A stretch of DNA of 34,214 nucleotides. It comes from Alphaproteobacteria bacterium (GTDB taxonomy: Bacteria > Pseudomonadota > Alphaproteobacteria > SHVW01). Positions within the stretch are counted from its first letter, which is position 1, and every line of letters starts with the position of its first letter. Location: NCBI GenBank assembly GCA_009694085.1, contig SHVW01000018.1:1-34214 (forward strand). The letters are read 5' to 3'. Made by a program: the position numbers and the translations under genes. Under the pieces are notes generated by a model, which saw only the letters and a program-made list of their open reading frames with translations, did not search any database and had not been told where the DNA came from. Shown here one piece after another: positions 539 through 28,570 of this stretch.

Positions 539-2575
539 TCAGGCCCGGTCTCGAGCGTAAACGTTGATTTGGCTCGCAACCCAATATTTGCGAGGCGCTA
601 CTAACGCAAGCGGACCTGCTGCGGCGATAGGATCGCCCGGCCGTAAACTCTCAATCAACCGGTAGCCCGCCCGTGCGAAATGATCGGGAGAGTTAGCGCG
701 CCCGTTCCATAAATCCCAGCTACTCGTCACCGTCGTCTCCAGAATACGGCGGGGTTCAAGCCGAGCCGCGATGGACAAACAGCGGTCGAGATCGGCATCG
801 TCAAAACAACCGGTCACCACGAACATAGTGAGCAGATCGATCGAGCCGTGGCGAGCGCGAAAACTCGCCACATCCCAATCGAGTGCATCGGCCTGAAAGA
901 ATTGCGCTGGCGCGCATCCTCCCACTACGGGAGTGGCTGTCGAGGACAGCATCATACGGGTCGCTTCGACTCTCGCATTATGAAAGTCGCACCCAAATAG
1001 ATCGGATGCCTTGATGCCACACTCGTCTCGAAGATAGCGTAGCCATTGTCCAAAGCCACAACCCAGGTCAAAAACACGAACGGGAGCAGGGCCAAGCTGC
1101 GCGACTTGCCTGCGCAGAACTTCGCGCGCCAGATTCGGCGTGGCGTGCCAATTTGCATAAAGGTCCGCGAGCGCCCGCGCTCCACGCGTCGCGGCAAAGA
1201 CCGGATCTTCACGCCACGACTCGTCCGGTCTCTTTTTTTTCTGACGCGCCGCGACCCAGAAGTGAAAAAACGGATTCATCACATGCCAAGCCGCGTGACC
1301 GGCATCGATTCCCGTTCCAACAACGCTGTCATACTTCGCGTCGATGGGGCGGCCTTCGGCGAGGTGCTTGCTGTAGCAGCGGAGCGCGTCGACCGGGCGC
1401 GATTGAAGCAAAAACTCGATGCCGCGATCCAGTTCGCTGCTAGGATCGGTAGCTAGGGTTGTGAGAAAGGCGTGGGTCTCCGGGCGATCGCACACTAGGT
1501 TCAACGGCGTCATCGACGCGGCGCTAGCCGTGCAGAGTTCGATCGTTCCGGAAAGTGCAGCCGCAATGCCATCGCGCGCGACCAGCGCGGTGAATAGCCG
1601 ATCCAATGGGTAGAAATTCGCCTTCCACCGAAATGTGGCTCCATCAATACGCGATGCACGACACCAGGCATCGAGCGACTCGATTGGGCGCTGTAATATC
1701 GCGAGACAATGAGCGCGCAAGACATGCGTATGGGCATGGTCAGGTCTTCGTTGGGCGGCCGCATCAAGGTGTACTAATGCTCGGTCTGCTCGGTCAATTC
1801 GCAGATGGGCCACGCCTAGCGTAAATTGCCTTTCTGCTTGGTCAGGTGCGAGTCGCAAGGCCGCTTCCAGAGGAAGCAGGGCATCGGCCGCCCGATTAAG
1901 GCGTATTAGAACCTGGCCGAGTGCGAATTGTACTTTGGCAGCACCCGGATTGGCCGTCGCAGCGGCCCGGAGTGGCTCCAGTGCCGCCTCATCTTTTCCA
2001 ATGCGAGCCAGCGCGGCGCCGAGCTGGGCCTGCACACGCCAACTATCTGGCTTGAGTCGTGCCGCCTCGGCGAGATGAGGAATCGCGTCTTCGATCCGGT
2101 CTAGCCGAAGCAGCGACTGGCCGCAGCCATACTGATAGGCCCAGTTGCCGGGCTCGCGCGCAATCGCCGCCGACCATGCCGCGCATGCCAGTTCATGCCG
2201 ATTGTCGGCCGCCAACGCCGCGCCGAGTCCGCTCCAAGATCGCGCCGCGCCGGGATCGAGTGCCGTGGCCCGACCATAAGCGCCAGCCGCGACAGCGGCG
2301 TCGATTCCAAGCAGAGCTTTGCCAAGGGCGGCATGGGCAGCGGCGCGCGAGGGATCGAGCGCCTGCGCATGCAACAGCGCATCCGATGCTTCCCTGGGTC
2401 GGCCGGCATCCGATAAGGCCTGGCCGAGCAGATGAAAGGCCCCTGCATGGGCCGGCCCGATCAAAGCAGCCTCGCGCGCCAGTTCGATAGCTCTCGCGTA
2501 GTCGGCTTGCTGGAGTGCCGCGACCGCGCGTCGGAGCGCGTCCCCAAGCTTGCTGATCGGCGCCGACGCACTCAA
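539..2575 (-). CDS. TPR-repeat protein fused to C-terminal class I SAM-dependent methyltransferase
   Basis: Multiple 34-aa TPR-like repeats (e.g. AFHLLGQALSDAGRPREASDALLHAQALDPSRAAAHAALGKALL) followed by VRVFDLGCGFGQWLRYLRDECGIKASDLFGCDFHNARVEA (SAM-binding motif I). TTG start overlaps upstream stop (TTGA). Confidence 0.85.
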   Translation of the reverse strand: MSASAPISKLGDALRRAVAALQQADYARAIELAREAALIGPAHAGAFHLLGQALSDAGRPREASDALLHAQALDPSRAAAHAALGKALLGIDAAVAAGAYGRATALDPGAARSWSGLGAALAADNRHELACAAWSAAIAREPGNWAYQYGCGQSLLRLDRIEDAIPHLAEAARLKPDSWRVQAQLGAALARIGKDEAALEPLRAAATANPGAAKVQFALGQVLIRLNRAADALLPLEAALRLAPDQAERQFTLGVAHLRIDRADRALVHLDAAAQRRPDHAHTHVLRAHCLAILQRPIESLDAWCRASRIDGATFRWKANFYPLDRLFTALVARDGIAAALSGTIELCTASAASMTPLNLVCDRPETHAFLTTLATDPSSELDRGIEFLLQSRPVDALRCYSKHLAEGRPIDAKYDSVVGTGIDAGHAAWHVMNPFFHFWVAARQKKKRPDESWREDPVFAATRGARALADLYANWHATPNLAREVLRRQVAQLGPAPVRVFDLGCGFGQWLRYLRDECGIKASDLFGCDFHNARVEATRMMLSSTATPVVGGCAPAQFFQADALDWDVASFRARHGSIDLLTMFVVTGCFDDADLDRCLSIAARLEPRRILETTVTSSWDLWNGRANSPDHFARAGYRLIESLRPGDPIAAAGPLALVAPRKYWVASQINVYARDRA

Positions 2576-4218
2576 CCGCTCACCCGCTCATAGAGGTTAA
2601 GTTGGGCCGCCACCCAATACTTGTTGGGCAAAACTATATAAGGAGCGGTCTCCGCCGTCAGTGCCTCGCCAGGGTAAACGCGCTCGACCAAACGATACCC
2701 GGCACGGGCGAAATGTAATGCAGCATCTCGGCGGCCTCGGTTGGCACCCCAAACGTCAACCGGCGCCTGCTCAACAACATATGCCGGTCCAAGCTGTGCA
2801 ATGCGTGCCAAAACTCGATCCAGTTGAGAATCATCGAAAACACTGATGAAAGACATCATGAGGACAAGATTGGGGCGGCCATACGTGGCGACGAAAGCAT
2901 CGGGATCCCAGGATAATGCATCGCAGCCAAAAAAGTTGCCTGCTGAAACTTCAGCATGCCCCACATCCGGATCGGGTGACATTTCGACCAGCGCGCGCGC
3001 CATGTTGACCCTAGCATTATGAAAGTCGCATCCGAACAGATCGCGAATCGCCACACCGCAATCGTCGTGCAAATAGCGCAGCCAGTGACCGAAGCCGCAC
3101 CCCATGTCGAGCACGCGTAACGGCGCGGTCATTTTCGACACCCACTGCCTGACCTGCGCGCGCGCCAGGCTGGGTATCGTGATCCAGTCAAGATAGGCCT
3201 GCTCAAGCAGACGAGCGTTTTCCTGCTTGCCATAGGCATGCATCGTCCGCCAATGGTCTTGGACATCCACGGTACCGACAGGCATTGCCGCAGCTTGCTG
3301 CCAAGCGATGTAGAAGGGATTCATCGCATGCCAAAGCGGGTGGCCCGCATCGTTTCCCTGTTCGATGACGACTGCATACTTCTCAGCGGGTAATTGGCCG
3401 GCGATGACCAGGTCGGCAAAATAGCGAAGGGCGTCGAGCGGCCGGTCTTCCTCAAGCAGGCGCACGCCGGCATCGAAGGATGAAATGGGCTCGCTGCGAC
3501 AAGCGGCAGCTAGGGCCGCGCGCGTTTCGGCTGGCCGCCGGGGCACAATGCGGTCTGGCCAAGCCGGATTAATAGCCTGCCAAAACTGGATCGCAACCTC
3601 GCATGCCGCCCCTAGGCCGTCACGCTCGCGAATCGATTGCACAAGCTGCCGGGCGATGTAGAAATTGCCTTTCTCGCGCAGGAGGATGCCGGGGTCGAGT
3701 TCAAGCGCGCGACGCCAGGCTTCCACAGCGCCATCGTGGCGGTGGGCACGGCTAAATGCCAATGCAATGTTGTGGTGGGTTTGCCAAGTGTCGAGGCCGA
3801 GTTCAACAGCCTGCTCCAGAGATTTCGCAGCCTCAATCGGACGGCCGAGTTTGAGCTGAAGCAAGCCAAGATTATAGCGTAGGGTGGCATTGTCGGGTTC
3901 AAGCTCGACTGCGCGGCCGAACGCCGTTGCTGCCTCGGCCCGCCGTCCCATACGCGCGGCAGTCAGGCCGATCAACTTGTGGGTAAGCCAGCTTGCCGGT
4001 GCAAGCGCCGCCGACGCCAGCAACGGCAGCATGACCGTACCACTATCGCCCTTGAAAAATCGTGTCATTGCCAAATTGTAGCGGGCCGCACCGTTCGCCG
4101 GTTCGTTCATAATGTAATGCTGAAGCGTCGCCTCAGCCCGCGTCGCATCCTCGTTCAGAGTAGTGGCTCCCCCGACTGAAGCGATTGAAGCCATAACTCC
4201 AAATTGACCAGTTGCCAC
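2572..4218 (-). CDS. TPR-repeat protein fused to C-terminal class I SAM-dependent methyltransferase (paralogue of the adjacent gene)
   Basis: TPR-like repeats, then LRVLDMGCGFGHWLRYLHDDCGVAIRDLFGCDFHNARVN, near-identical in motif to the neighbour. Exact start uncertain: the annotated ORF overlaps the upstream gene by 64 nt. Confidence 0.83.
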   Translation of the reverse strand: MATGQFGVMASIASVGGATTLNEDATRAEATLQHYIMNEPANGAARYNLAMTRFFKGDSGTVMLPLLASAALAPASWLTHKLIGLTAARMGRRAEAATAFGRAVELEPDNATLRYNLGLLQLKLGRPIEAAKSLEQAVELGLDTWQTHHNIALAFSRAHRHDGAVEAWRRALELDPGILLREKGNFYIARQLVQSIRERDGLGAACEVAIQFWQAINPAWPDRIVPRRPAETRAALAAACRSEPISSFDAGVRLLEEDRPLDALRYFADLVIAGQLPAEKYAVVIEQGNDAGHPLWHAMNPFYIAWQQAAAMPVGTVDVQDHWRTMHAYGKQENARLLEQAYLDWITIPSLARAQVRQWVSKMTAPLRVLDMGCGFGHWLRYLHDDCGVAIRDLFGCDFHNARVNMARALVEMSPDPDVGHAEVSAGNFFGCDALSWDPDAFVATYGRPNLVLMMSFISVFDDSQLDRVLARIAQLGPAYVVEQAPVDVWGANRGRRDAALHFARAGYRLVERVYPGEALTAETAPYIVLPNKYWVAAQLNLYERVSG

Positions 4219-5981
4219 AGGAACATCATGTGATTGTCCCGGGTCTCGCCGCCCAGCACGATGCGGCGGTGTTCCAGTGCCAGGCGTTCCGCCTCGGCTA
4301 CGTTATAGATACCGCGCTCTGCAAACCGCTGGGAGCGGATCATGTCCATCAGCGGTGCAAACGACGCCTCGGCGAACCAGCGATGGGCCGGTGCATTCCA
4401 GCCGGTTTTGGCCACGCGGGTGCGCGTCTTCTCCGGCAGCACGCCTTTCATGGCGATGCGCAGGAAAGATTTCGTCACCCCGTCACGGATTTTCCACGCG
4501 GTCGGCACGCGCAGCATGAAGGAGACGAGCCGGTGATCGAGAAAAGGAAAGAAATCGTCCAAACCGATCGCCGCACTGTTGCGATCGCTCGCACGCAGGC
4601 AACAGGGCATGGTGTTGCGCGTCAACTCGTTGAGCGTGTGGCATTTGAGATAGCTGCGCAGCGGCCGCTCGAAATCGGGCCGAATCGCGCCGTGATCGAA
4701 ATAACCGGGATCGAGCGCGTGCCGATAGCGGTCCAACAACGACAGATTCGGACGGCATTGGCCGGGGCGAGCGGGGTCAGTCAGTTCCGCCATCATGCGC
4801 CGCGCCAGATCGCCGCTCTTGCGGAACACGGGGTGGTCGTGATGGCCGATCCATCGTTCGATTTCACGCGCGAGACGATCATGGTCGCCGGCCGCCAGAA
4901 GATCGGCGAAGAAGTAGAAAAAATAATCATACTCGCCGGCATGCTGCTCGTCGCCGCCGAGTCCGCCGAACAGCGCGTCAAAGCCTTCGCCACGGACACG
5001 TTGAGTTAGAAGATAGTGGGTCATCCAGGTGACGGTCGCGACGGGCTCGTCGTGGAAATCGACCATTTCGGCGACCAGCGCGAACAGATCGGGTTCGTCC
5101 ACCCGCACCGGCATCCAATCGGCAATACCGGCGTCGATGACGTCGCGAATTTCCCGGGTTTCGTCGTAGTACTCGTCGGAATAAACCGTCGAGACGGCGC
5201 GCGGTCTAGTGCCGGATAGACGATAGGCGGCGGTCACGACCGAAGAACTGTCGAGTCCGCCCGATAACATGAAGGCCGGCTGTGTTGATCGTTTAAGTCG
5301 GCGTGCGACTGCATCGGCGAATAGCGCCCTGTACTCTTCGGCCACACGCTCGACCGGTTCGGCGAACTCCTCGACCTCGGCAAAGCGCGCATAGGGTGCG
5401 ATCGTCACGGCGCCAGACCGACGAGACAGCATGTGACCGGGCGATACTTGATCGATGTCGGCGAAGGGCGAGCGCTGGGGATCGACATCGAAGAAGCGAT
5501 AATGGCCGGCGGCTACAGTGGCGACATAGTCCGGCCGGACCTCAGTCGTGACACCCGTTGCCGCGAACAGCGCGCGCGGCCGAGAAGCAAAGGCGAAAGG
5601 CCTCCCGGCGCGGGTATAGTAGAGCGGTCGCACGCCAAATCGATCGCGTGCGAGCGTGAGGTCGCCGGATCGGCAATCCTGAATCGCCAGGGCGAAATCG
5701 CCATTGAGCCGTGCCAACGTCGCTTCGACGCCGTAGCGTTCGAGGGCGCTGGCGATGCGCGCCGCATCGTTCGACCCGTCCGGCAAGTCCTCTGGATTAT
5801 AGATGGTACCGTCGAGCAGCACGATCCAGCCGGCGCCCTTGTGCATAGCTGCACGCGCATCGCCCGCCAGGGTCAACCCGTCCGGGCCGACCGCTCGAAC
5901 CGCAACCGGAATGGCGATGCGCGCGAGCAGGTCATCCGCGCTAACCCCTGGCGGCCCAACCGATCCCGCTATGCGTGCCAT
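4155..5981 (-). CDS. Asparagine synthetase-like protein with degenerate class II glutamine amidotransferase domain
   Basis: Synthetase P-loop FMLSGGLDSSSVV and C-terminal FPFLDHRLVSFMLRVPTAWKIRDGVTKSFLRIAM; N-terminus MARIAGSVGPPG aligns with canonical MCGIAG but lacks Cys. Start at 5981 chosen over the track's 6041, which runs into the upstream gene. Confidence 0.88.
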   Translation of the reverse strand: MARIAGSVGPPGVSADDLLARIAIPVAVRAVGPDGLTLAGDARAAMHKGAGWIVLLDGTIYNPEDLPDGSNDAARIASALERYGVEATLARLNGDFALAIQDCRSGDLTLARDRFGVRPLYYTRAGRPFAFASRPRALFAATGVTTEVRPDYVATVAAGHYRFFDVDPQRSPFADIDQVSPGHMLSRRSGAVTIAPYARFAEVEEFAEPVERVAEEYRALFADAVARRLKRSTQPAFMLSGGLDSSSVVTAAYRLSGTRPRAVSTVYSDEYYDETREIRDVIDAGIADWMPVRVDEPDLFALVAEMVDFHDEPVATVTWMTHYLLTQRVRGEGFDALFGGLGGDEQHAGEYDYFFYFFADLLAAGDHDRLAREIERWIGHHDHPVFRKSGDLARRMMAELTDPARPGQCRPNLSLLDRYRHALDPGYFDHGAIRPDFERPLRSYLKCHTLNELTRNTMPCCLRASDRNSAAIGLDDFFPFLDHRLVSFMLRVPTAWKIRDGVTKSFLRIAMKGVLPEKTRTRVAKTGWNAPAHRWFAEASFAPLMDMIRSQRFAERGIYNVAEAERLALEHRRIVLGGETRDNHMMFLWQLVNLELWLQSLQSGEPLL

Positions 5982-5994
5982 CCCTGCCCGCCGT

Positions 5995-6783
5995 TCACTT
6001 GACTGCGTAAACGATCCACATGGCCTGCATATAGCGGGCATAGCCGCGGCGCTCGGATTCCACGCGCGGTAGCTCGTAGGTCAGCTCACAGGGATCGACG
6101 GTCGCGCAGCCGCGGAGCAGGTCGGCATATTCCTCACGCGCAAAAAAATGAGCGAGGCCGATGGTTTCCAGGTCGAACTTATTGGCGACTTTGTCGGACT
6201 TGAGCCGAACCGTGCCGGGATCGTCGGCGAGTTGATGGGCACGCTGAGCGACGAAAGTGGAATGCCGCTGATTCAGCATATGACCGACGAATACGCCGCC
6301 GGGCTTGAGCACACGCACCACTTCGGCGAAGGCAGCCGCGCGGTCGGCGCGCGCGAGATGCTGGAACACGCAGGATTCGAGCACGCCGTCGAAGCTGTTA
6401 TCGGGGAAGGGCAGTGCGGTGGCCGAGCCGTGCTCCAAACGGCGCAAGCGATCTTGCAAGCCGCGGCGAGCGAAGGCCTGGCGCGCCAGATCGAGCGCGG
6501 TCGGCGAGATGTCGACACCGGATACCGCAATGCCGCGCTCGGCGAGCCAGACCAGGTTCGGCGCCGCCCCGCAACCCACTTCCATGAAGCTGAGTCGGCC
6601 GTAGTCCTTGGGCTCGATCCGACCGCGCAAATGGTGAGACACGGTGCGCACCAACGCTTCCACCGGTGCGGTGTTGTAAGCCGCGGCAGTCACCTGATCC
6701 TGGAAGGAAGTGTCCCAAGTTTGCTGCATCGCCTGGGCGCGCGTGTGGGCGTCGCCGGCTGCGGTTTCTGGCGCCTGCGTCAC
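5995..6783 (-). CDS. Class I SAM-dependent methyltransferase (Methyltransf_11-like)
   Basis: LSFMEVGCGAAPNLVWLAERGIAVSGVDISPTALDLARQ, ALPFPDNSFDGVLESCVFQHL, VRVLKPGGVFVGHML. GTG start at 6783 overlaps upstream TGA (GTGA). Confidence 0.88.
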   Translation of the reverse strand: MTQAPETAAGDAHTRAQAMQQTWDTSFQDQVTAAAYNTAPVEALVRTVSHHLRGRIEPKDYGRLSFMEVGCGAAPNLVWLAERGIAVSGVDISPTALDLARQAFARRGLQDRLRRLEHGSATALPFPDNSFDGVLESCVFQHLARADRAAAFAEVVRVLKPGGVFVGHMLNQRHSTFVAQRAHQLADDPGTVRLKSDKVANKFDLETIGLAHFFAREEYADLLRGCATVDPCELTYELPRVESERRGYARYMQAMWIVYAVK

Positions 6784-7145
6784 GATGCGTTCGTCAGATT
6801 GAGCGTATCGCCATCGAGCCAAGCGATCACGCGCATGGATTGGGCGGCGATGTAAGCCTCAAATTCGGCCATGCGATCCTCCTCGACCAGCAGCAGATAG
6901 CGCCGTTCGCCGCTGGCGACAAGGGCGGAACGCAACCCGAACTGCCGAAGCCGGCCGTTGAGCGAGGGTGTGGCGTAATAACCCCAGGATTTACGCACGA
7001 TGTCGTATTCGTGGCCGCCAGAGGCGGTCAGCGTGATCTGCTCATCCGCCGCAAGCTCGATATCGGCAACATGGGACAGGTGAATCTCGCGCCCTTTGTG
7101 GCCGACGGCGAAACGGCGGGGCGGGGTCCGCTCCTTCAGCTTCAT
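6780..7145 (-). CDS. Conserved-looking small hypothetical protein (121 aa)
   Basis: ORF bounded by ATGA/GTGA overlaps with both neighbours, arguing it is real; no motif recognised. Confidence 0.7.
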   Translation of the reverse strand: MKLKERTPPRRFAVGHKGREIHLSHVADIELAADEQITLTASGGHEYDIVRKSWGYYATPSLNGRLRQFGLRSALVASGERRYLLLVEEDRMAEFEAYIAAQSMRVIAWLDGDTLNLTNAS

Positions 7146-7852
7146 CGCTGTCCCTCCTGCCAGGCGCGCGCCAACGCCACGATGCGGTCGAGGTTGGCGC
7201 TTGCCAGATCGGTGCCGAGCCGTCCGGCGATCCAGGCCGCCCGCGCCAAATCGTCTGGCGTATCGACGGTCAGACCGACCCCACTATAGCGATCATCCCC
7301 GACCGTCACATTAGCGATGCGGAACCGATCCGCGTGCGCGTAGATGTAGCGCGTAACGTGCTCCCGGTCCCCGCCATCGTCGGTCAACGCCAGCATGCGG
7401 TCGAGCGCTTCGGTCGCCAAGACCTCGACGCTGACTCCGGGCGGGTAGCTGCGCGGAAATACATTGGTCGCCAAATCTACATCACCTTGGCGAAAACGCG
7501 CGATGACAGCACCAATCACAGCGGGATCGATGAACGGGCTATCCGCGCTGATCCGCACGATCGCCTGGAGCCGGCGCGCGAGCGCACAATCATGGGCGCG
7601 CCGGGCGACATCGTCGAGGGCGCCACGAAATACGTCTACGCCCTCGGATTTTGCGAAAGCGGCGATCGGGTCGTCGAGCGTTCGGTCGGAGGTGGCAACC
7701 ACGATGGGCGGCGAGCCCACAACCCGGCGCAAGCGGTCGATGACCCGGCCCAAAATGGGGCAGCCGGCCAGAGGGGTCATGGTCTTGCCCGGAAGCCGGC
7801 GCGAATCCAGTCGCGCAAATACAAGTATGGCGAGGTTCGGGTCGGCGCTCAC
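7142..7852 (-). CDS. SpsF-like cytidylyltransferase (glycosyl/acylneuraminate cytidylyltransferase family)
   Basis: LAILVFARLDSRRLPGKTMTPLAGCPILGRVIDRLRRV nucleotidyltransferase signature; RISADSPFIDPAVI; VDTPDDLARA. GTG start at 7852 overlaps upstream stop (GTGA); the longer 464-aa track ORF is an out-of-frame extension into the next gene. Confidence 0.87.
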   Translation of the reverse strand: MSADPNLAILVFARLDSRRLPGKTMTPLAGCPILGRVIDRLRRVVGSPPIVVATSDRTLDDPIAAFAKSEGVDVFRGALDDVARRAHDCALARRLQAIVRISADSPFIDPAVIGAVIARFRQGDVDLATNVFPRSYPPGVSVEVLATEALDRMLALTDDGGDREHVTRYIYAHADRFRIANVTVGDDRYSGVGLTVDTPDDLARAAWIAGRLGTDLASANLDRIVALARAWQEGQR

Positions 7853-8922
7853 GCGTTCTTGCCGACAACCCGCCGCCACTCCTCGACATACCACTCGCAG
7901 TATTTGCGATAGCCCTTTTCGAGCGGCCATTTCGGAATGAAGCCCAGCACGTCGCGGGCGCGGTCCATCGACAGCGTGCCGCGCACTGGCTTGTCGAGCG
8001 CGCGCGGACGCTCTTCCAAAATCGCGTTTGGCACGATGTCCTTCACGATGGCGGCAAGGTCCGCAATCGTGCGCGCATTGCCGAATGTCATGTTGAAAGT
8101 ATTCGACAAGCCCTGGCCATTTTGAAGCGCCAATGCGCGCACCATGCCCTCGACCAGATCGTCGATATAGGTGAAGTCGAGCCGCCCATCGCCGCCGCCT
8201 TCCAACAATAGCGGCCGTCCGGCCAGAGCGTTCTCCACGAAGGCCTGACTGACGCGGCGGCTGACGCAGCGCTCGCCGTAGAGCGCGCTCGGCCGGATGA
8301 TCGACACGCCAAGACCGTATTGGTGGCAGTAGTCGCGCAGCAAACGCTCGCCCATGTATTTGGCGTTCGCGTAGATACCGCGCGGGCTCGGACGCGTGTT
8401 CTCGTCGACGCTCGCCCCCTCGAAATCGCCATAGACCGTGCTCGACGACATGAACATGATCAGGTTGACCTGATCGTGAGTCAGCCGGCAAAGCTCGATG
8501 ACATTGCGCAACGTAACGAGTTGCAGATCGAAGCACAGACCCGGATCCTTGCGCGCATCGACCGCACTGGCGATAGCCGACATGTGGACCACCTTGGTCG
8601 GCTTGAACTCGTCGAAGGCACGGGCGAGATCGGAGAAATTGCGCGCATCGACATTTTTCAGCTTCACGCCGGCATCGCGCATCATCTCGACGCGGCTGCT
8701 GAGAAAATGCAGGTTGAGCCGGCGTTTCACCTGGTCGCCGCGATCGTGATAGGCGTTGTCGACCAGATGGTTGACCATCATGTTGTCGAGCACGCTGGTT
8801 TCCACGCCCAGCCGGCGCAGTTCGAGTGCCACATTATGGCCGATGAAACCGGCGCCGCCGACCAGCATGACGCGCTGGCCTTGAAGCTTGCGCGCAACGG
8901 TCTGATAGGGAATATCCGCCAT
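7849..8922 (-). CDS. NAD-dependent epimerase/dehydratase (extended SDR)
   Basis: VMLVGGAGFIGHNVALELRRLG nucleotide-binding motif; SSSTVYGDF and YANAKYMGERL (YxxxK); LDFTYIDDLVEGMVRAL. Confidence 0.9.
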   Translation of the reverse strand: MADIPYQTVARKLQGQRVMLVGGAGFIGHNVALELRRLGVETSVLDNMMVNHLVDNAYHDRGDQVKRRLNLHFLSSRVEMMRDAGVKLKNVDARNFSDLARAFDEFKPTKVVHMSAIASAVDARKDPGLCFDLQLVTLRNVIELCRLTHDQVNLIMFMSSSTVYGDFEGASVDENTRPSPRGIYANAKYMGERLLRDYCHQYGLGVSIIRPSALYGERCVSRRVSQAFVENALAGRPLLLEGGGDGRLDFTYIDDLVEGMVRALALQNGQGLSNTFNMTFGNARTIADLAAIVKDIVPNAILEERPRALDKPVRGTLSMDRARDVLGFIPKWPLEKGYRKYCEWYVEEWRRVVGKNA

Positions 8923-8951
8923 TACCTTCGGTCCTCTATTCTTCTGTTTGC

Positions 8952-10106
8952 CTAGCGACGGGCGCGGCGAACCGCGTCCTTCATGACCCGGCCGATGCGC
9001 GCGGCATCGCCCGGCTCGACATGGGGCCCCGTGGGCAATGAGATGGTTTGGGCGGCGAGCCATTCGGCAACCGGGAACTGGCCGGGCTTGTAGCCGTACT
9101 TCTCGCGATAGTAGGTCATCATCGGTATCGCCGCGGGATAGTGAACGCTGGTGCCGATGCCGGCCTTGTTGAGTTCGGCGACCGCCGCATCGCGGTCGAT
9201 GCTGCCATCTCTGGGCAGCACTGCGTTGAGGCAGTAATGGGTCGAGCGCGCCTTGCCCCGCTCGGGCGCGAAGACCGTAACTTCTTCGATATCGGCGAGC
9301 GCGGTTCGGAGATCGCGATAGTTCCGAGCGCGCTGCTCTTGAAAGCGGTCGAGTTTATCCAACTGAGCTAGGCCGACCGCGGCCTCGACCTCGTTCATGC
9401 GGTAATTGAAGCCGAGCGCGGTCACGTCATAAATGCCGGGTTTGGTACGGCGGTCGACCGTCTTGTCGTAGCCAAAGGATTTGCGCTGGGCGATGCGTTG
9501 GGCCAATACATCGTCGTTGGTCGTGGCCATGCCGCCTTCGATGGTTGTGATGTGCTTGACCGGATAGAAGGAAAAGCAACCCACGGCACCCAGCGTGCCG
9601 ACCTTGCGATTGCCGTAGGTCGCATCCATGGCGATCGCGCAATCCTCGACAATGAAGGCGCCAGCCTTCTCCGCGATCGGATTGATGCGGTCCATCTCAC
9701 AGGGCAGGCCCAGAAAATGCACGACCATGATCGCCCTTGTGTGCCCGTTGACCGCGGCCGACAACGCCCTCGAATCGACATTGCCGGTATCGGCTTCGAC
9801 ATCGACAAATACCGGTTTGGCCTGGCACAGTTCGGCAACGTGCGCGGTCGCCACATGGGTAAGTGCAGGCACGGCGACCTCGTCGCCCGGACCGACATCT
9901 TGGGCGAACAAAGCCAGATGGAGTGCAGCCGTGCATGATGAGACCGCGATCGCGTGCTTCGCCTCGACGCGCGCGGCAAAGCGAGCCTCGAATTCATGGG
10001 TCATGGGCCCATGCACCAGGGTCGTCCCCTGCAACACCTTGACCACCAGATCGATCTCGGCCTGGTCCAACATGGGCCGGCCGAAGGGTATGGCGCGCTC
10101 GTTCAT
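8952..10106 (-). CDS. DegT/DnrJ/EryC1/StrS family PLP-dependent sugar aminotransferase
   Basis: IPFGRPMLDQAEIDLVVKVLQG; AVSSCTAALHLALFAQDVGPGDEVAVPALTHVATAH; GCFSFYPVKHITTIEGGMATT (PLP lysine); GFNYRMNEVEAAVGLAQLDKLD. Confidence 0.93.
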   Translation of the reverse strand: MNERAIPFGRPMLDQAEIDLVVKVLQGTTLVHGPMTHEFEARFAARVEAKHAIAVSSCTAALHLALFAQDVGPGDEVAVPALTHVATAHVAELCQAKPVFVDVEADTGNVDSRALSAAVNGHTRAIMVVHFLGLPCEMDRINPIAEKAGAFIVEDCAIAMDATYGNRKVGTLGAVGCFSFYPVKHITTIEGGMATTNDDVLAQRIAQRKSFGYDKTVDRRTKPGIYDVTALGFNYRMNEVEAAVGLAQLDKLDRFQEQRARNYRDLRTALADIEEVTVFAPERGKARSTHYCLNAVLPRDGSIDRDAAVAELNKAGIGTSVHYPAAIPMMTYYREKYGYKPGQFPVAEWLAAQTISLPTGPHVEPGDAARIGRVMKDAVRRARR

Positions 10107-10147: not shown

Positions 10148-11149
10148 TCAGATCGAATAACTGACGCGCACGGTACGCCCCGCCGCCACCGACTCCCATG
10201 CGGCGAAGCAAATATCCATGACGCGGAAGATGTCGCGGGCGCCGACCAGCGGCTCGCGGCCGGCCCGGATGCCCTCGACGAAACCGGGCAATAAATCGCC
10301 CTTTTCTATACCCGGATACGGCGTGGACACAACATGTTCGTTCCGCTCCTCGTCGCCGTCGAACCGCTTGGCCCGGGGCAGGTCGTTGACGAAGGTCTGC
10401 TTGGTTCCATAGACGTTGAGCGCGTGGAACTTCGTGCGCTGAGGTCCGAAGATCGACATGGTCTTGCCCACGGCGCCGCCCTCGAAACGCAGCAGGTTGA
10501 CGATCATGTCGTCGAATTTGTAGGCGCTGTCCCGGGTCAGGATTTTATTGCCCATCCCGCAGACTTCGACGACCTCGCGGTCGATCAGCCAGCGCATCAG
10601 GTCGATCAAGTGGATGCCGCCGCCATAGGTCACGCAGTAGAAGGCCATCCGCCCGCGCCAGCCCTGGGTGATCTTGCTCAAAATGTTGTGTACGTAGTCG
10701 CCTTCGATCGCCACGATCTCGCCGAATTCGCCCGATGCGATCTGGCGCTTGAGTTCCTGGAAGCGCGGGCTGCGGCGCAAGATCAGGTTGGAGGTGATAA
10801 ACCGGCCGCTGTCTTGCTGAGCACGCAGCAGCGCCGCCGCGTCGGCGCGTTCGAGCGCCACCGGCTTTTCCAGCATGACGTGCTTGCTCGCCCGAAAGGC
10901 GGCAATGGCCTGCTCGGCATGGGCATCGTCATGGGAGCAGATCGACACCACATCGATATCGGGATGCTCGACCACACGGCGATAGTCGGTGTGGCGATCG
11001 GCGATGCCGTGGCGATCGGCGACCTCGGCCAGTTTGGCCGGATCGATGTCGCACACGGCCTGAACGGTGACGCCAGGAATGGCCTGATAGCCGATCAAAT
11101 GCTGCTCGCCGATGCCGAGGCCGATCACGCCAGCCTTGATGGGCTTCAT
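10148..11149 (-). CDS. Gfo/Idh/MocA family oxidoreductase
   Basis: IKAGVIGLGIGEQHLIGYQAIPGVTVQAVCDID; DVVSICSHDDAHAEQAIAAFRASKHVMLEKPVAL; GGIHLIDLMRWL. ATGA overlap with upstream gene. Confidence 0.92.
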   Translation of the reverse strand: MKPIKAGVIGLGIGEQHLIGYQAIPGVTVQAVCDIDPAKLAEVADRHGIADRHTDYRRVVEHPDIDVVSICSHDDAHAEQAIAAFRASKHVMLEKPVALERADAAALLRAQQDSGRFITSNLILRRSPRFQELKRQIASGEFGEIVAIEGDYVHNILSKITQGWRGRMAFYCVTYGGGIHLIDLMRWLIDREVVEVCGMGNKILTRDSAYKFDDMIVNLLRFEGGAVGKTMSIFGPQRTKFHALNVYGTKQTFVNDLPRAKRFDGDEERNEHVVSTPYPGIEKGDLLPGFVEGIRAGREPLVGARDIFRVMDICFAAWESVAAGRTVRVSYSI

Positions 11150-11862
11150 ATCCGCGCCCTCATGTTGTCTGGCATCCAATGATAGGTCATCGCCTCGGCA
11201 GCGACACGGAAACCGAGGCGTCGATAAAGCGCCACCGACGCCGCGTTGTTTGCCTGGGTCCCGGCCCGGTAGCTTCGCGCATGGCCGGCATAGTGCCGAG
11301 CGCCGGCCTCCGTCAAGCGCCGGCCGATACCGCGGCCCTGGTGGCCGGCCGCCACCGCAACCAGGTCGATGGTTGCGATATCGCCGGCGAGCAAACACAG
11401 GTTGAAGCCAACAACCGTCCCATCGGCAACTGCGACAAGACAAGCGTCGGCGCGGCCGGTCAGGTCGTTCAACACCCAGGCCTCCTTAATCCGATCCCCA
11501 ATGGCAGGATCGAGGCGGGTGTCGGCGTGATAACGGTCGAAGCAGAAGGCCGTGCGGCCGATGGTGGCGCAAACTGCATGGTCGGCCGGTTTCGCCAGTC
11601 GCACGTCCGCCGGCCAATTCGGCAATGCCGCCGCCAGATCCAGTTCAAACGTGAGCAAGCGCTCGATGGCACGAAATCCCGCGGCTTCAAGCCGGGCCGC
11701 TTCAGTCGCTGCGTCCGTCGCTATACGCGCGACGACCAAATGTGCGGTCGCGAATTCGGGGCTGGCGAGCGCCGCAGGCAAATCGGCGCCGGCAGCCAGA
11801 CGGAACACCGGGCCGCCCAGAATGCTCGAATCGAACGGTTGGGGAACCAATAGCGCGGTCAC
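11146..11862 (-). CDS. GNAT family N-acetyltransferase
   Basis: IDLVAVAAGHQGRGIGRRLTEAGARHY...AGTQANNAASVALYRRLGFRVAAEAMTYHW (acetyl-CoA binding QGRGIGRRL). Confidence 0.88.
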   Translation of the reverse strand: MTALLVPQPFDSSILGGPVFRLAAGADLPAALASPEFATAHLVVARIATDAATEAARLEAAGFRAIERLLTFELDLAAALPNWPADVRLAKPADHAVCATIGRTAFCFDRYHADTRLDPAIGDRIKEAWVLNDLTGRADACLVAVADGTVVGFNLCLLAGDIATIDLVAVAAGHQGRGIGRRLTEAGARHYAGHARSYRAGTQANNAASVALYRRLGFRVAAEAMTYHWMPDNMRARI

Positions 11863-12704
11863 GGCACTGGTCTGGCGAACAAGCGGATTGTGTATTTGCT
11901 CGACGGCTCGCGCACACGTTCGATCACGTCGACACTGAAACCGGACCGGCGCACCAACAAAGCGGCCGACGCCATGGAGAATGCGGCGTGGTGTTCGACG
12001 AAGAATTCCTCACGATCCGGACTGTCCAGGATCGCCGCCTCGCCATCGGGCAGTTCAACATAGGCAACACCACCCGGTGCCAACCAGGCCCGCGCGCGCG
12101 CCAGCATGGCGATCATGTCGCCGACATGCTCGATCACCTTGTTGAACGCGATCAGATCGAAACCAGGCGTGGGAGGCAGCGTCATGAAGTCGCCGCACAG
12201 GGTCGCGCTTCCTGCCAGTTCCGCGACCATGTCACAAGCGCGCGCATCGGGATCGAGGGCGGTGCATTCCCAGCCCGCCGCTGCCATGGCGGCGGGAAAT
12301 ACGCCGAGCCCGCTGCCGACATCGAGCAGACGGCGACCGGCCAAGCCGGTACCGCCCATGTATGCCTGGATGCGCGCGACCCGTTGGCGATTGTCGGACC
12401 GCTCCGGCAGCAGCGCCATGACGCGCGCGAAGGTTTCACGCAGGCGCGGACCGTAGGTGGCCTGGGTATAAGCGCCTTCATAAAGGGCGCGCGCCAAATC
12501 GAAACCGTAGCGATTGACGATGTGGCCGCAGGATTCGCATTGCCACATGGAGCGCGCATAGGGCGCGATGGCGAAATCGGTCTCCCCCTGCGGCGGCCGA
12601 TCGTAGTCGATCAGATGGCGATGGCGCACGCCCTCGCACAGCGCGCAACGATCCGGCGCGGCTACCAAGACCAATCCTCGATCAGGAAGCCGGGGAGTGT
12701 CCAC
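11859..12704 (-). CDS. Class I SAM-dependent methyltransferase with N-terminal CxxC...CxxC putative zinc-binding segment
   Basis: CALCEG...WQCESCGHIV then RRLLDVGSGLGVFPAAMAAAGWECTALDPD; FDLIAFNKVIEHVGDM; LAPGGVAYVELPDG. Start uncertain (GTG 12704 or in-frame TTG 12668 near the upstream stop). Confidence 0.86.
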   Translation of the reverse strand: MDTPRLPDRGLVLVAAPDRCALCEGVRHRHLIDYDRPPQGETDFAIAPYARSMWQCESCGHIVNRYGFDLARALYEGAYTQATYGPRLRETFARVMALLPERSDNRQRVARIQAYMGGTGLAGRRLLDVGSGLGVFPAAMAAAGWECTALDPDARACDMVAELAGSATLCGDFMTLPPTPGFDLIAFNKVIEHVGDMIAMLARARAWLAPGGVAYVELPDGEAAILDSPDREEFFVEHHAAFSMASAALLVRRSGFSVDVIERVREPSSKYTIRLFARPVP

Positions 12705-13786
12705 CGATCGCCCCTTCGCTTCCAGATATCAAGATTGCGAAAGCGCTCGGCCGCCTCCCAAAACCAGGTTTCCGGCTTACCCGCAAAAACACAGAAACGG
12801 CGGATGCCGTCCTCGGGCGTTTGCAAGCCGATGCGCCGGATCGTGTCGATCGCCTGCGCGCGCGTTACCGTGCCGTAGCGAATCTGTTGGGACAGGTTGT
12901 CGAAGGATCGGAGCATGCCGAATTTGTACCATTTGAGGAAATGGTGGAGCGCAATGAAGTGGCAATCGATGTCGGCAAACGACCACACCCCGGTTTTTAG
13001 GTGCTCTTCGCCGCTTTCGAACCCGCGCGAGGCGGCGGCCCGGGCATTGTCCTCCGAATTCCATTTGAAGAACGAGCCGAGGAAGATCGATTTGGGCTGG
13101 AAGCGCCGGAAGGCCGCCTCATCGGGCAGGCGATAGGCGGCAAAGTCGCGCTCGGCCAAGCCCTCGGCCCCGACCCAGTCGGGCCACTCCGTTTGGTTGG
13201 TGACGCCGTGTTTCTTGATCCAGGCGAGATCGAGGTCGGTCGCCAGGCGGTCGGCCTCGGGCCCGCCGAATTCGAGCTGAGGATTCTCGCCCCACACCAC
13301 GAGCGGAATGGCGAAATCGACGGCCATGCGAATTGGAATGGCGAACAGCGCCATATGCATGGGGATAGCGGTGGCGCCCTTGCGCTCATAGGCGGCAATC
13401 ATAAAACGCCGCTCGGTCTCGGGATCGATGGTGGTGTCGACGTGATCGATGCCGAGCCGGCGCACCATGGTCTCCAGATTGCGCTGACCGATCTCGGTGC
13501 GTCCCGGCGTGCGCCAGGTCACGCCGAGCACCTTCAGCCCATGCTCCTGACAGCGGATGACCTGATACCAGCTATCCTTGCCGCCCGAGACCGGCACGAT
13601 GCAGTCATAGCCGGTCGACCGGCCCCTGGCGTCGGCGACGATGCGCGCGAAATCCCGGGCGCGCGAGGCCCAATCGATGCGCGTGTTCTTGTCATCATGG
13701 CCGCGGCAACCGGAGCAGATGCCGTCGCCATCGAGCACGATGCCCGGCCTGGTGTCGGGCAGGATGCAGCGCCGGCAGTATTTCAC
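12662..13786 (-). CDS. N-acetyl sugar amidotransferase (WbpG/PseA-like, ATP-PPi P-loop)
   Basis: YCRRCILPDTRPGIVLDGDGICSGC; DCIVPVSGGKDSWYQVI (PP-loop SGGKDS); GVTWRTPGRTEIGQRNLETMVRRLGIDHVD; VVWGENPQLEFGG. GTG start at 13786 overlaps the upstream TGA; the track gives TTG at 13795. Confidence 0.88.
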   Translation of the reverse strand: MKYCRRCILPDTRPGIVLDGDGICSGCRGHDDKNTRIDWASRARDFARIVADARGRSTGYDCIVPVSGGKDSWYQVIRCQEHGLKVLGVTWRTPGRTEIGQRNLETMVRRLGIDHVDTTIDPETERRFMIAAYERKGATAIPMHMALFAIPIRMAVDFAIPLVVWGENPQLEFGGPEADRLATDLDLAWIKKHGVTNQTEWPDWVGAEGLAERDFAAYRLPDEAAFRRFQPKSIFLGSFFKWNSEDNARAAASRGFESGEEHLKTGVWSFADIDCHFIALHHFLKWYKFGMLRSFDNLSQQIRYGTVTRAQAIDTIRRIGLQTPEDGIRRFCVFAGKPETWFWEAAERFRNLDIWKRRGDRWTLPGFLIEDWSW

Positions 13787-15615
13787 GGCCGCCAATCCCG
13801 ATGATGTTCCAGGAACGTCTGGGCCGAGATGAAACTAAACAGGAATTTTGAAAAGCTGTTGTCGGCCATGCTGCCATCCAGGAAAGATTCGATGGCGTCA
13901 CGCCGCACGATGTCGAAGATCGGGCCGTCCGCCAGCAGGCGCTCGCGGGTGGCGTTGTCGGTGCGGTCGACCAGACTGTCGATCGAGGCGTTGAAGCCGC
14001 GCTTGCGCTTGTCCAGCCGCACGCTGTCGGTCACCACGCCCTCGCCCGCCGCGCGCAACAGCCATTTGGCATAGCCGTCTTTGATCAAATGCTCGGCCGG
14101 GACGGTATAGAGGAATTCGGCTAGTCCACGATCGAGATAGGGCGAGCGGTTCTCCACTGAGTAGTACATGGAGTTGAGATCGTCTTCTTTAAGAATGACC
14201 GGTGTCGCCTCGTGGAATAGCTCGTTGAGCATGCGATTGCGCAGGAGATTGTCGGTGAATTTGGTTTCCTCGAACGGCTCGGCAAATGGCCGGACCAGCC
14301 ATTGCTGGAACAAATCGGCGTTGAGATAGATATGGCCCCGTTCGGCCGGATTGCGCGCGAACGCGAGCGGGTCCTTAAGCACGGGATTTTGAACATAGGC
14401 GCCGTAGCTGCCGCGCCAATCGGCGACCAGGCGATCGAAATCGGTCCTCCCGCTCATTTCGGCCAGCCACATGCTGTAGTGGTCGTAATAGCCAGTGAAC
14501 AGTTCGTCGGCCGCCGAACCGGAGATGGCGACACGATAGCCGCGGGCGTGGATCGCCTCGGACAGGAAGGCGTGGAGATAGTAAGTAATGGTCGCCACCG
14601 GCGCGTCGTGATAGGCGACCAGCGCGCGCATCCGATCGAAGAAGCCGTCGGTACTGGTGTGAACGCGAAAATTCTCGCAGCCTAGGAACTTGACCGTGGC
14701 CTCGATATTGTCGAGCTCGTGATAGCGCTCGTCGCTGTCGATAATCGAAAAGGTGTGCAGATTCTGGCCATAGCGTTTGGCGGCAATGCCGACCAACGTG
14801 GTCGAATCGATGCCGCCGCTGAGGCAGAAAGCAATGGGCACGTCGGCGCGCAGACATAGGCGCACGGCGTTGTCGAGCGCCGCCTTGGTACCCTCGACCG
14901 CCTCGCCCATGGACATGGCGCGTGGCTTGTAGTCGAGTTGCCAATAACGGATCGGCAGGATCGGCCCCGCATCTTCGATGACCGCGAAACTGGCGGCCGG
15001 CAGCTCCTTCACGTCGCAGTAGTAGCCGCGAGGCTGCTTGTAGAGCGATTTGTAGCCGGTCACCAAATAGCGCGCGACCTGCTCCGCATTGACCTCCGGT
15101 TTGGCGCCGGACAAAGCGGCCAGGAACTTTACCTCGGAGCCGAAATAGAGCGTGTCGTCCCGGCGCCAGAGTTGAAGCGGTTTTTCCCCGAAACGGTCGC
15201 GGCTGAGGATGACCTTACCGCGCGCGCGGTCGATCAGGGCCAGCGCCCACATGCCTTCCATCTTTTCGAAGGCGCGCTCGCCCCAATGGCGCCAGGCCTG
15301 CAACAAGACTTCGGTATCAGAGGTTGTGCGGAAGCGCTGGCCTTCGGCTTCCAGCTCGCGTTTGAGCTCGACGTAATTATAGATCTCGCCATTGGTGATC
15401 AGCACCAGATCGTCCTGGAAGAAGGGCTGCATGGCCCGTTCGTCCAGATCGACGATGGCGAGTCGGGCGAATAGCAGGGTCACCTGCAAGTCGCCAACCT
15501 GCTCCTGATGGAAGCGGGCGCCATCGGGCCCGCGCCGGCCCATAAGCTGGAGCGTGCGCTGGATGCGCTCGGGGCTGGGTCGGATGGCGCCGATGGCGCC
15601 GGCGATGCCGCACAT
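13783..15615 (-). CDS. asnB: Asparagine synthase (glutamine-hydrolysing), AsnB-like, intact glutaminase nucleophile
   Basis: MCGIAGAIG start, GRRGPDG, NGEIYNY, FCLSGGIDSTTLVGIA, SVENRSPYLDRGLAEFLYTVP. Confidence 0.92.
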   Translation of the reverse strand: MCGIAGAIGAIRPSPERIQRTLQLMGRRGPDGARFHQEQVGDLQVTLLFARLAIVDLDERAMQPFFQDDLVLITNGEIYNYVELKRELEAEGQRFRTTSDTEVLLQAWRHWGERAFEKMEGMWALALIDRARGKVILSRDRFGEKPLQLWRRDDTLYFGSEVKFLAALSGAKPEVNAEQVARYLVTGYKSLYKQPRGYYCDVKELPAASFAVIEDAGPILPIRYWQLDYKPRAMSMGEAVEGTKAALDNAVRLCLRADVPIAFCLSGGIDSTTLVGIAAKRYGQNLHTFSIIDSDERYHELDNIEATVKFLGCENFRVHTSTDGFFDRMRALVAYHDAPVATITYYLHAFLSEAIHARGYRVAISGSAADELFTGYYDHYSMWLAEMSGRTDFDRLVADWRGSYGAYVQNPVLKDPLAFARNPAERGHIYLNADLFQQWLVRPFAEPFEETKFTDNLLRNRMLNELFHEATPVILKEDDLNSMYYSVENRSPYLDRGLAEFLYTVPAEHLIKDGYAKWLLRAAGEGVVTDSVRLDKRKRGFNASIDSLVDRTDNATRERLLADGPIFDIVRRDAIESFLDGSMADNSFSKFLFSFISAQTFLEHHRDWRP

Positions 15616-15626
15616 GCCGCTCTGCC

Positions 15627-16637
15627 CTATACCAAATGTTCCAGCCGGATGATCGCACCCGGCGCCAGATCGGTCACCAACCGGCGGCCCAGAACGCGCC
15701 GCTCATCGCCCGGCGGAATACCGTCGCCCGGCCGGAGCCAGGCAATGTCGCCCGGCCCGATCACGGTGCCGGCCGAGAGTGCGCGCGCCGCCGCGATCGA
15801 GCGGCGGATGGCGGTCATCGATTCCACCTCTTCGGGCTGCGGCACCTTCTCGCCCGAACCCACAATCGCCTCGACCTCGCGAATCTCCCGGATCATCCGC
15901 GTCAATGTGGGCGGATCGGCCGAGAGCTGGTGGTCGCGGAACGCGGAATAATCGTTGGCTAGGGTGAAATGCTTCTCCACGATGCGCGCGCCGGCCGCCA
16001 CGGCTAGCACGCAGGCTTGGGTGCCGATGGTATGGTCGGAATAGCCAATCGTAGCGTCGAAAGCGCGCGCCAAGGTGCGAATCGCCGCCAGGTTGGCGTG
16101 GGCGGGCGGTACGGGATAGGCGGTTACGCAGTGCAGCAGGGCGAGCGGTGGCGCCACGCCTCGATCACGCCAGATGCGCCGGATCAGCGCGCGGGCATGA
16201 TCGATCTGGGCCATATCGGCAAGACCAGTGGATAGAATGGTCGGCTTGCCCTTGGCCGCGACGGTCTCGATCAGGGGATAAAAGGTGTTGTCGCCCGAGG
16301 CGATTTTGAAGGCGTCGACGATGCCATCGAGGAACTCCGCGCTGGGCAGGTCGAGCGGCGTCGAGATGAAGGCAAGACCGGCGCGGCGCGCTTGTTGCGA
16401 CAGGCGCGTAAACTGGTCCTCGCTGAGCTCGAAACCCTTCATGCGCTGGAAGCGCTCGGCCTGAACCGGCGAGACGAACAGCTCGGTGCGAAAAGTCTGG
16501 AACTTGATCGCCTGGGCGCCCGCTTCGGCGGCGCGCCCGACCAGCTCCTCCGCCACGCCGAAGGAGCCTTCGTGGTTGTTGCCGACCTCGGCGATGACCA
16601 GCACTTGGCGATCCGAATCGAACGGCCCGATTTTCAT
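15627..16637 (-). CDS. NeuB-like N-acetylneuraminate/nonulosonate synthase
   Basis: LVIAEVGNNHEGSFGVAEELVGRAAEAGAQAIKFQTF; FKIASGDNTFYPLIETVAAKGKPTILSTGLADM; LLHCVTAYPVPPAHANLAAIRTLARAFDATIGYSDHTIG; VEKHFTL; C-terminal SAF-like LSAGTVIGPGDIAWLRPGDGI. Confidence 0.93.
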   Translation of the reverse strand: MKIGPFDSDRQVLVIAEVGNNHEGSFGVAEELVGRAAEAGAQAIKFQTFRTELFVSPVQAERFQRMKGFELSEDQFTRLSQQARRAGLAFISTPLDLPSAEFLDGIVDAFKIASGDNTFYPLIETVAAKGKPTILSTGLADMAQIDHARALIRRIWRDRGVAPPLALLHCVTAYPVPPAHANLAAIRTLARAFDATIGYSDHTIGTQACVLAVAAGARIVEKHFTLANDYSAFRDHQLSADPPTLTRMIREIREVEAIVGSGEKVPQPEEVESMTAIRRSIAAARALSAGTVIGPGDIAWLRPGDGIPPGDERRVLGRRLVTDLAPGAIIRLEHLV

Positions 16638-17761
16638 GGTGTCCCCGGCCTCGTTTCGGGGCCTGTATAGAGGCCGGCCAGAGCCGATGCAATGGTCTCC
16701 GCCGCTGTTCGCGCCGCCGCGTCCCAGGAGAAACGGGACCGCACCCATTCGCCACCGGCAAGCCCGCGCGTGCGCGCCGCTTCGGGGTTCTCGTAGACCT
16801 GACGCATGAGGCGGCGCATATGGCCGATATCGGGCTCGGCCCACAGCCCGAAATCGCCGTCGGCGGCAATGAAAAAGGGCACGTCGACCGGCACCAGGCG
16901 ATAATCGATCGGATAGGCGTGGGGGCCCATGAACGCGGTTTGGCCGCTATAGCCGGTGACGATGGCGGGCAGGCCGCAGGCCATGGCCTCGATGATCGGC
17001 AGGCCCCAGCCCTCTGCGCGGGTCGGCGACACGAAGGCCTGGCAGGCGGTGTAGAGGCCGGCGATCCGCCCGTGGTCCTGAATCGGCGGGATTAGGAGTA
17101 GCCGCCCCGGCCGTTTCAATTTCAAGGCACGCAATTCGGCCCTAAAATCGATATCGGGATAATGGGGATTGTAGCAGGACAGCACGAGCCGGACATCTTC
17201 GCCCCGGGCGAATTCATCGTCGAACGCCTTGATCAGCCGCGCTGTGCCCTTGCGTTCCTCCCATTTGCCAATATTGATGAACTTGAAACCGGATCGGCGC
17301 GCCAGATCGGGCACGGGCGGCGCCTTCGGATTGAACAGATCGCCGTCGACGCCCTCGGGCACAACACGGATGCGGCTTCCGTCGAGACCGTTAGCGATAA
17401 AGATGTCGCGGTTCCACGCCGTCGGCACCCAGATCTGATCTGCACGAGCGAGCGGTGCGCGCCAATTGTCGGGCAATTTGGTCGCTTCCCAAACTGTATA
17501 AGCAATGCGCGGCCCTGGCGGCGCCCCGTCGAGCACATGCATCATTTGGCCATGGAGCAACGCGATCGAAGCCACGGGTCGGCCCGGCCAGATGCGTTGG
17601 ATGAGCGCTCGATCTTCGTCGAGCGGCCCGTCCAGGTCTTTGAGCGGCGTGGCGACCACCGGTATCAGCCGGGCGAGCCGGCCGAACAGATTGTCGGTAT
17701 GGACGTTGTAGCCAAGCCGCCCCCCGAACCAGCCGATGGCGTGAACCAGCGGCAGGGTCAT
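16634..17761 (-). CDS. Family 4-type glycosyltransferase (GT-B)
   Basis: RIRVVPEGVDGDLFNP; FKFINIGKWEERKGTARLIKAF; FVSPTRAEGWGLPIIEAMACGLPAIVTGYSG. ATG at 17761 overlaps the upstream stop. Confidence 0.9.
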   Translation of the reverse strand: MTLPLVHAIGWFGGRLGYNVHTDNLFGRLARLIPVVATPLKDLDGPLDEDRALIQRIWPGRPVASIALLHGQMMHVLDGAPPGPRIAYTVWEATKLPDNWRAPLARADQIWVPTAWNRDIFIANGLDGSRIRVVPEGVDGDLFNPKAPPVPDLARRSGFKFINIGKWEERKGTARLIKAFDDEFARGEDVRLVLSCYNPHYPDIDFRAELRALKLKRPGRLLLIPPIQDHGRIAGLYTACQAFVSPTRAEGWGLPIIEAMACGLPAIVTGYSGQTAFMGPHAYPIDYRLVPVDVPFFIAADGDFGLWAEPDIGHMRRLMRQVYENPEAARTRGLAGGEWVRSRFSWDAAARTAAETIASALAGLYTGPETRPGTP

Positions 17762-28447: not shown

Positions 28448-28463
28448 ATTGCCCTGGGGCAAT
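28448..28463. promoter_or_regulatory. Perfect palindrome ATTGCCC-TG-GGGCAAT, candidate operator
   Basis: 7-bp perfect arms, 2-nt spacer, directly abutting a TTGACA hexamer (28463-28468). Confidence 0.45.
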
Positions 28464-28492
28464 TGACACCAAGGGTTGCCGGGCCGATGCTT
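28463..28492 (+). promoter_or_regulatory. Candidate promoter for the histidine kinase gene (consensus -35 TTGACA, weak -10)
   Basis: TTGACA at 28463-28468; only weak -10 candidates (GATGCT/ATGCTT) at 17-18 nt spacing. Confidence 0.25.
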
Positions 28493-28570
28493 TGTACTTA
28501 CGGCACTGTATCCTCCCGAAGCAGTCGCCGAACGGTCTCGCGCAACGAGCTCGCAGGCAAAGGCATCGCC

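Follow-up and report, generated by a model that had tools for sequence, protein, structure and literature searches.

AsnX, as we name it here, is an AsnB-like protein of 608 amino acids encoded at 5981..4155 on the minus strand of a 34,214-nucleotide stretch of DNA (hereafter the window; contig SHVW01000018.1 of assembly GCA_009694085.1, from an Alphaproteobacteria bacterium). Judged by its residues, the N-terminal glutaminase half of AsnX is catalytically dead, and the C-terminal synthetase half is retained. We propose, with belief and doubt in equal measure, that AsnX is a carboxylate-adenylating amide ligase, coming from the AsnB-type amidotransferases, that decorates a nonulosonic acid (NulO), a sialic-acid-like sugar of the bacterial surface, both substrates being putative. 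The initial annotation of this DNA had correctly located the gene and described the lost glutaminase site; the loss proves to be ancestral to a clade that spans multiple phyla.

The N-terminus of AsnX reads MARIAGSVG, with Ala at the position of the AsnB Cys nucleophile (MARIAG, residues 1–6, 5964..5981, minus strand). The ATG at 5981 lies 13 bp past the stop of an upstream methyltransferase gene, MT_A. Because the AsnX frame overlaps this gene, a further in-frame ATG is present within it at 6041, and the product starting there also lacks Cys2. In the relative L006, whose protein is 69% identical, an in-frame stop lies 5 codons ahead of the same MARIAG ATG; in L008, L009 and L011, a stop lies 3–4 codons ahead of the AsnX ATG. 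The starts of the relatives follow the pattern M-x-R-I-x-G, again with no Cys2. Recurrence of this start and of the close upstream stops in independent genomes rules out a miscalled start or a sequencing error. The AsnX copy of genome G032 (loci L051 and L028) lies in pieces on two contigs; its first residues are MSRICG, in which the Cys is at position 5, not 2.

The degenerate N-terminal nucleophile (Ntn) glutaminase domain covers approximately residues 1–205 (5367..5981, minus strand) and is still predicted to fold in spite of low identity. Its matches to glutaminase-type Pfam profiles begin late, at profile position 24 for GATase_7 and 37 for GATase_6. The C-terminal half is a complete Asn_synthase domain (PF00733, 175 bits against a gathering score of 21) and, as initially annotated, retains the ATP pyrophosphatase P-loop, SGGLDSSS at residues 240–247 (SGGLDSS, residues 240–246, 5244..5264, minus strand).

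Comparison across the family confirmed the loss of the glutaminase site. Cys2 is absent from all 15 AsnX members, which represent at least four phyla, and its position is occupied by Ala, Pro, Thr or Ser or is missing (glutaminase residues are numbered as in E. coli with Met as 1; the residue counts that follow are over 14 members). Arg31, Arg50 and Glu77 are lost in every member, the Glu77 position being variable. The replacement of NGEIYN by DGTIYN, also noted initially, is found at residues 57–62 and reflects a change of Asn75 to Asp in 13/14 members, with Gly76 retained and Asn80 mostly so. The RGPDG motif is likewise gone; however, the AVGPDG sequence described as its replacement is not conserved, since no member other than the window protein keeps GPDG, and we therefore reject it as a remnant of RGPDG. 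By these comparisons, the whole equivalent segment has degenerated. Two actinobacterial members start beyond the nucleophile region and thus lack both the Cys region and the beginning of the Ntn fold, since that stretch is taken up by the reading frame of the methyltransferase upstream. Over the segment equivalent to E. coli residues 2–72, mean pairwise identity is 20.5% in AsnX versus 48.6% in the intact AsnB proteins encoded in the same clusters, whereas conservation of the synthetase domains is about equal (55.1% and 56.2%, respectively). This pattern places the loss at the ancestor of the clade and is not that of a private mutation or a sequencing error.

In the synthetase half, the P-loop SGG[LM]DSS (14/14), Asp344–Glu345, Tyr351 and Lys525 are invariant. 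Lys525 (4407..4409, minus strand; Lys in 14/14) coincides with or adjoins the catalytic Lys, Lys449 in E. coli. Asp344–Glu345 belongs to the GGLGGDE motif (residues 339–345, 4947..4967, minus strand), in which Leu341 takes the place of E. coli AsnB Glu348, a residue thought to handle ammonia in AsnB. This position is Leu in 14/14 AsnX members and Ser or Thr in the intact AsnB of the cluster; therefore, neither looks like an asparagine synthetase. The Glu348 replacement and the cluster context exclude AsnX as the asparagine synthetase of the cell. Residues that are invariant only in AsnX, namely Glu350, His381–Asp382–His383, Lys388, Cys460, Trp528, His533 and Asn583–His584–Met585–Met586, suggest a dedicated substrate site. 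The Glu-Tyr pair of AsnX appears, from its spacing and allowing for a one-residue insertion in AsnX, to match the pair shown by mutagenesis to be important in the AsnB-like nitrile synthetase PesC (PMC13060819).

Searches of 385 class-level genomes, 399 phylum-level genomes, GTDB contigs and a plasmid collection indicated that AsnX is a rare and well-bounded family. When 41 genomes were surveyed with the window protein, members scored at least 266 bits, two of these hits being the two parts of a single broken gene, and the top score outside the family was 152 bits. The hosts comprise Alphaproteobacteria of several families, Burkholderiales, Armatimonadota, Elusimicrobiota, Actinomycetota and SAR324 (partial), and the G+C content of the loci ranges from 25% (L016) to 67% (L006). 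Members are 37–68% identical to the window protein, with the ATP site, Asp-Glu, Tyr and Lys still invariant. In a tree of 50 proteins, AsnX forms one clade (100/100) separate from every glutaminase-intact AsnB tested, and the intact cluster AsnB forms another (100/100), which rules out a recent duplication of the operon’s intact AsnB. An AlphaFold2 model of AsnX is confident and two-domain (predicted local distance difference test score, pLDDT, 89.3; predicted template modeling score, pTM, 0.90). Its fold matches in the PDB are the hydroxyamidotransferase TsnB9, β-lactam synthetase, asparagine synthetase and carbapenam synthetase (CarA); hence the Ntn domain has probably kept its fold, but only as a scaffold. 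A Streptomyces sp. AcH 505 contig carrying AsnX (L010; G+C 62%) shares 77.5% identity with the Afipia cluster across 4.2 kb; it is a probable contamination and was excluded from the counts.

AsnX is nested within the distribution of the intact cluster AsnB. Of the 385 class-level genomes, 22 carry cluster AsnB, and the 5 that carry AsnX all fall among these 22 (hypergeometric P = 4e-7; P = 1e-4 once the window genome and its congener are removed). One of the five is G032, the best piece of whose split gene reached 3.7e-80 and so narrowly missed the limit of 1e-80. The remaining 17 of the 22 hold cluster AsnB without AsnX. When tested directly, 13/14 AsnX genomes also held cluster AsnB, the exception being the metagenome-assembled genome behind L013. 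Homologues of the methyltransferases MT_A, MT18210 or MT19124 (at least 40% identity, within about 10 kb on each side) were found at 13/14 AsnX loci versus 0/18 AsnB-only loci (p = 4e-8). The AsnB-only loci retain NeuB–AsnB, often with WbuX and a 121-aa protein, and lack both AsnX and its methyltransferases. Because these methyltransferases track AsnX and are absent from the AsnB-only loci, a NulO-type pathway carries AsnX and its methyltransferase(s) as an optional module.

The surrounding operon is of the nonulosonic-acid type, with NeuB, a cytidylyltransferase, DegT, GNAT and WbuX present in the window and in relatives. All the following genes are on the minus strand. MT_A (5995..6822; Methyltransf_11, 87 bits), a class I S-adenosylmethionine methyltransferase, is directly upstream of AsnX; its homologues adjoin AsnX in L006 and L015 and lie nearby in L007 and G032, and MT_A is part of the AsnX module. 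Downstream, Pfam identified a protein with tetratricopeptide repeats (TPR) and a methyltransferase domain that overlaps the AsnX 3′ end (2572..4218), and a second TPR–methyltransferase protein (539..2575), a homologue of which is also downstream of AsnX in the congeneric L006. Upstream of MT_A lies a conserved 121-aa protein (6783..7145) that recurs in most loci of this cluster type with the motif R-K-x-W-G-[YF]-Y-A-T-P-S-L-N-G-R-L; its homologues are fused to a second methyltransferase, MT_B, in L007, L015 and L060. It has no Pfam or NCBIfam match, and its predicted β-rich model (pLDDT 78) gave no PDB fold match, which argues against its being a carrier protein.

Farther upstream come a CTP_transf_3 cytidylyltransferase for sugar-acid activation (7142..7906; Pfam), an NAD-dependent sugar epimerase/dehydratase (7849..8928; Pfam), a DegT/PseC-like sugar aminotransferase (8952..10106; PF01041, 376 bits; TIGR03588, 308 bits, below the cutoff of 423), a Gfo/Idh/MocA-type sugar dehydrogenase (10148..11158), a WecD-like GNAT N-acetyltransferase (11146..11862), MT_B (11859..12704; Methyltransf_23) and a WbuX-family N-acetyl sugar amidotransferase of the acetamidino synthase family (12662..13795; TIGR03573, 300 bits, cutoff 203). 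The second AsnB reported by the initial annotation in this operon is indeed there at 15615..13783, with an intact MCGIAG start and Ser for Glu348, and upstream of it lies a NeuB-family nonulosonate synthase (15627..16667; PF03102, 227 bits; TIGR03569, 296 bits, below the cutoff of 400). The intact cluster AsnB nearly always adjoins NeuB and often WbuX, whose start overlaps the AsnB stop in the window. Rather than being an asparagine synthetase, this AsnB probably serves as a sugar amidotransferase or supplies WbuX with ammonia. AsnX is surrounded by much of the same complement of genes in Azospirillum plasmid p5, Armatimonadota, Elusimicrobiota, Afipia, Methylocystis and other hosts. The p5 copy, from Azospirillum brasilense, has genes for the CTP transferase, Gfo/Idh and DegT that look fragmented (L021:4634-7479), and it may be inactive or carry sequencing errors. 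Elsewhere in the window (28463-32379, plus strand), a hybrid histidine kinase is read in two frames with a frameshift near 30,950-31,050, either a sequencing error or a pseudogene.

Based on these findings, we propose a plausible mechanism in which the dead glutaminase half serves as a scaffold only and the synthetase half performs the chemistry. The synthetase half would bind ATP-Mg and activate a carboxylate substrate as its acyl-adenylate; the acyl group would then be passed to an amine other than glutamine-derived ammonia. AsnX would act in a NulO-type pathway together with the CTP transferase, dehydrogenase, DegT, epimerase, GNAT, NeuB, intact AsnB and WbuX, and its co-occurrence with one or two methyltransferases indicates that they form an optional decorating module. 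The likely product would be an amide on a nonulosonic acid or its sugar precursor, such as an aminoacyl or methylated aminoacyl substituent. Such a product might be analogous, as a candidate only, to the N-methyl-glutamyl legionaminic acid (Leg5Ac7NMeGlu) of Clostridium botulinum flagellin (PMC2674064). PtmG and PtmH are an acetamidino synthase and an N-methyltransferase that act on legionaminic acid (PMC13317340), and the existence of both modifications offers a chemical precedent for decoration by a ligase and a methyltransferase.

Several observations weigh against this proposal. AsnB-family synthetase domains are able to use free ammonia, so a dead glutaminase is by itself no proof of an organic amine acceptor; the near-strict co-occurrence with intact AsnB would also fit a supply of ammonia from that partner. 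In addition, locus L008/L023 has no methyltransferase directly upstream of AsnX, the methyltransferases that adjoin AsnX belong to more than one family, and their association was counted at the identity threshold and window size given above. The first two points bear on the main rival explanation, in which AsnX is an ammonia-dependent amidotransferase that converts a sugar carboxylate to a primary amide (or amidine) with ammonia taken either as free NH4+ or from a glutaminase encoded in the operon, be it the intact AsnB or another. AsnB-type enzymes such as PesC can use ammonia in vitro (PMC13060819), and 13 of the 14 genomes offer an intact partner. However, the presumed ammonia-handling residue Glu348 is Leu in every AsnX member counted, the intact AsnB has a complete synthetase domain of its own and occurs without AsnX in 17/22 genomes, and in two AsnX members the Ntn fold is missing its beginning; we consider this explanation unlikely. 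The initial annotation had left a choice among free ammonia, ammonia from a partner, and a different ATP-dependent ligation on a sugar. Although the three are not fully separable by sequence, the evidence leans to the last of them because of the Leu replacing Glu348, the clade-specific invariant residues, the truncated glutaminase folds and the link to methyltransferases in a NulO-type cluster.

AsnX might instead activate a carboxylate on the same sugar toward another outcome, such as an ester, thioester transfer, an amidine, a nitrile or a lactam. AsnB-like chemistry is versatile enough for this, as seen in nitrile formation by PesC (PMC13060819) and TsnB9-type hydroxamate formation (PMC13418202), and WbuX brings amidine chemistry to the same operon; at the AsnX locus, though, the neighbors are the sole positive pointer, and we regard such outcomes as improbable. 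The catalytic residues missing in one half could be taken to mean that AsnX serves the pathway as a pseudoenzyme, with no catalysis or with a regulatory role, yet the ATP site, Asp-Glu, Tyr and Lys have stayed invariant across the divergence of the family and the C-terminal domain is conserved as strongly as in intact AsnB, which makes this reading very unlikely. Least probable by our estimate, and markedly so, is action on a peptide or protein in a lasso-cyclase-like or macrolactam-forming manner. The lasso peptide and macrolactam cyclases are themselves AsnB-like synthetases without glutaminase function, and AsnX has weak similarity to their models; nonetheless, its scores fall far under the cutoffs (189 bits against 525 for NF033535; 87 bits against 300 for NF033561), its neighbors are sugar enzymes, and no lasso leader peptidase, precursor or other gene for ribosomally synthesized and post-translationally modified peptides was recognized among the neighboring genes. 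Identity as a lasso or related peptide cyclase is thus rejected on profile score and gene context.

In comparison with known systems, the amide ligase proposed here shares with E. coli AsnB and human ASNS the two-domain architecture, the ATP P-loop and the synthetase-site Asp-Glu, Tyr and Lys. It differs in lacking Cys2, Arg50, Asn75 and Glu77, in having Leu for Glu348, and in scoring 203.9 bits against the AsnB profile TIGR01536, below the cutoff of 267.1. The solved structure closest to AsnX by both sequence profile and fold is TsnB9 (7ylz), but AsnX lacks the residues needed for a glutamine-type donor; TsnB9 transfers glutamine-derived hydroxylamine to trichostatic acid (PMC13418202). With WbuX/PtmG and the O-antigen AsnB-like sugar amidases, AsnX shares a nonulosonic-acid or O-antigen context and ATP pyrophosphatase chemistry, whereas WbuX is a separate family (TIGR03573). 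To our knowledge, the known AsnB-like sugar amidases are glutamine-dependent. Comparison with the AsnB, β-lactam synthetase and lasso cyclase families, as suggested initially, puts AsnX outside all three by the tested sequence features and within the Asn_synthase superfamily.

Dead glutaminase domains on AsnB-like synthetases are already known from β-lactam synthetase and lasso cyclases, and AsnX adds an independent case in which the AsnB scaffold has lost its glutaminase and kept its adenylating half. We found no description of the AsnX clade, its gene context or its residue pattern in the open-access literature. Amidine, N-methyl-amidine and amino-acid substituents have been described chemically on nonulosonic acids, but few of the enzymes for attaching the amino-acid-type groups appear to have been assigned. 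AsnX, whose ligase clade is rare, sharply bounded and linked both to methyltransferases and to a defined NulO-type operon, is a concrete candidate for this role. β-Lactam synthetase and CarA carry out intramolecular lactam formation in antibiotic pathways and have Tyr at the Glu348 position. They are PDB fold matches of AsnX and, like it, combine a dead Ntn glutaminase with an adenylating domain and no ammonia donor; AsnX differs in its identity of only 16–18% over the structural match, its gene context and its Leu (14/14) at the position of that Tyr. We tentatively suggest, with doubt somewhat outweighing belief, that this glutaminase-dead AsnB-like clade of at least four phyla constitutes a mobile module that would join an organic amine and a carboxylate into a methylated, aminoacyl-type amide on nonulosonic acids, as the sugar-decorating counterpart of β-lactam synthetase.

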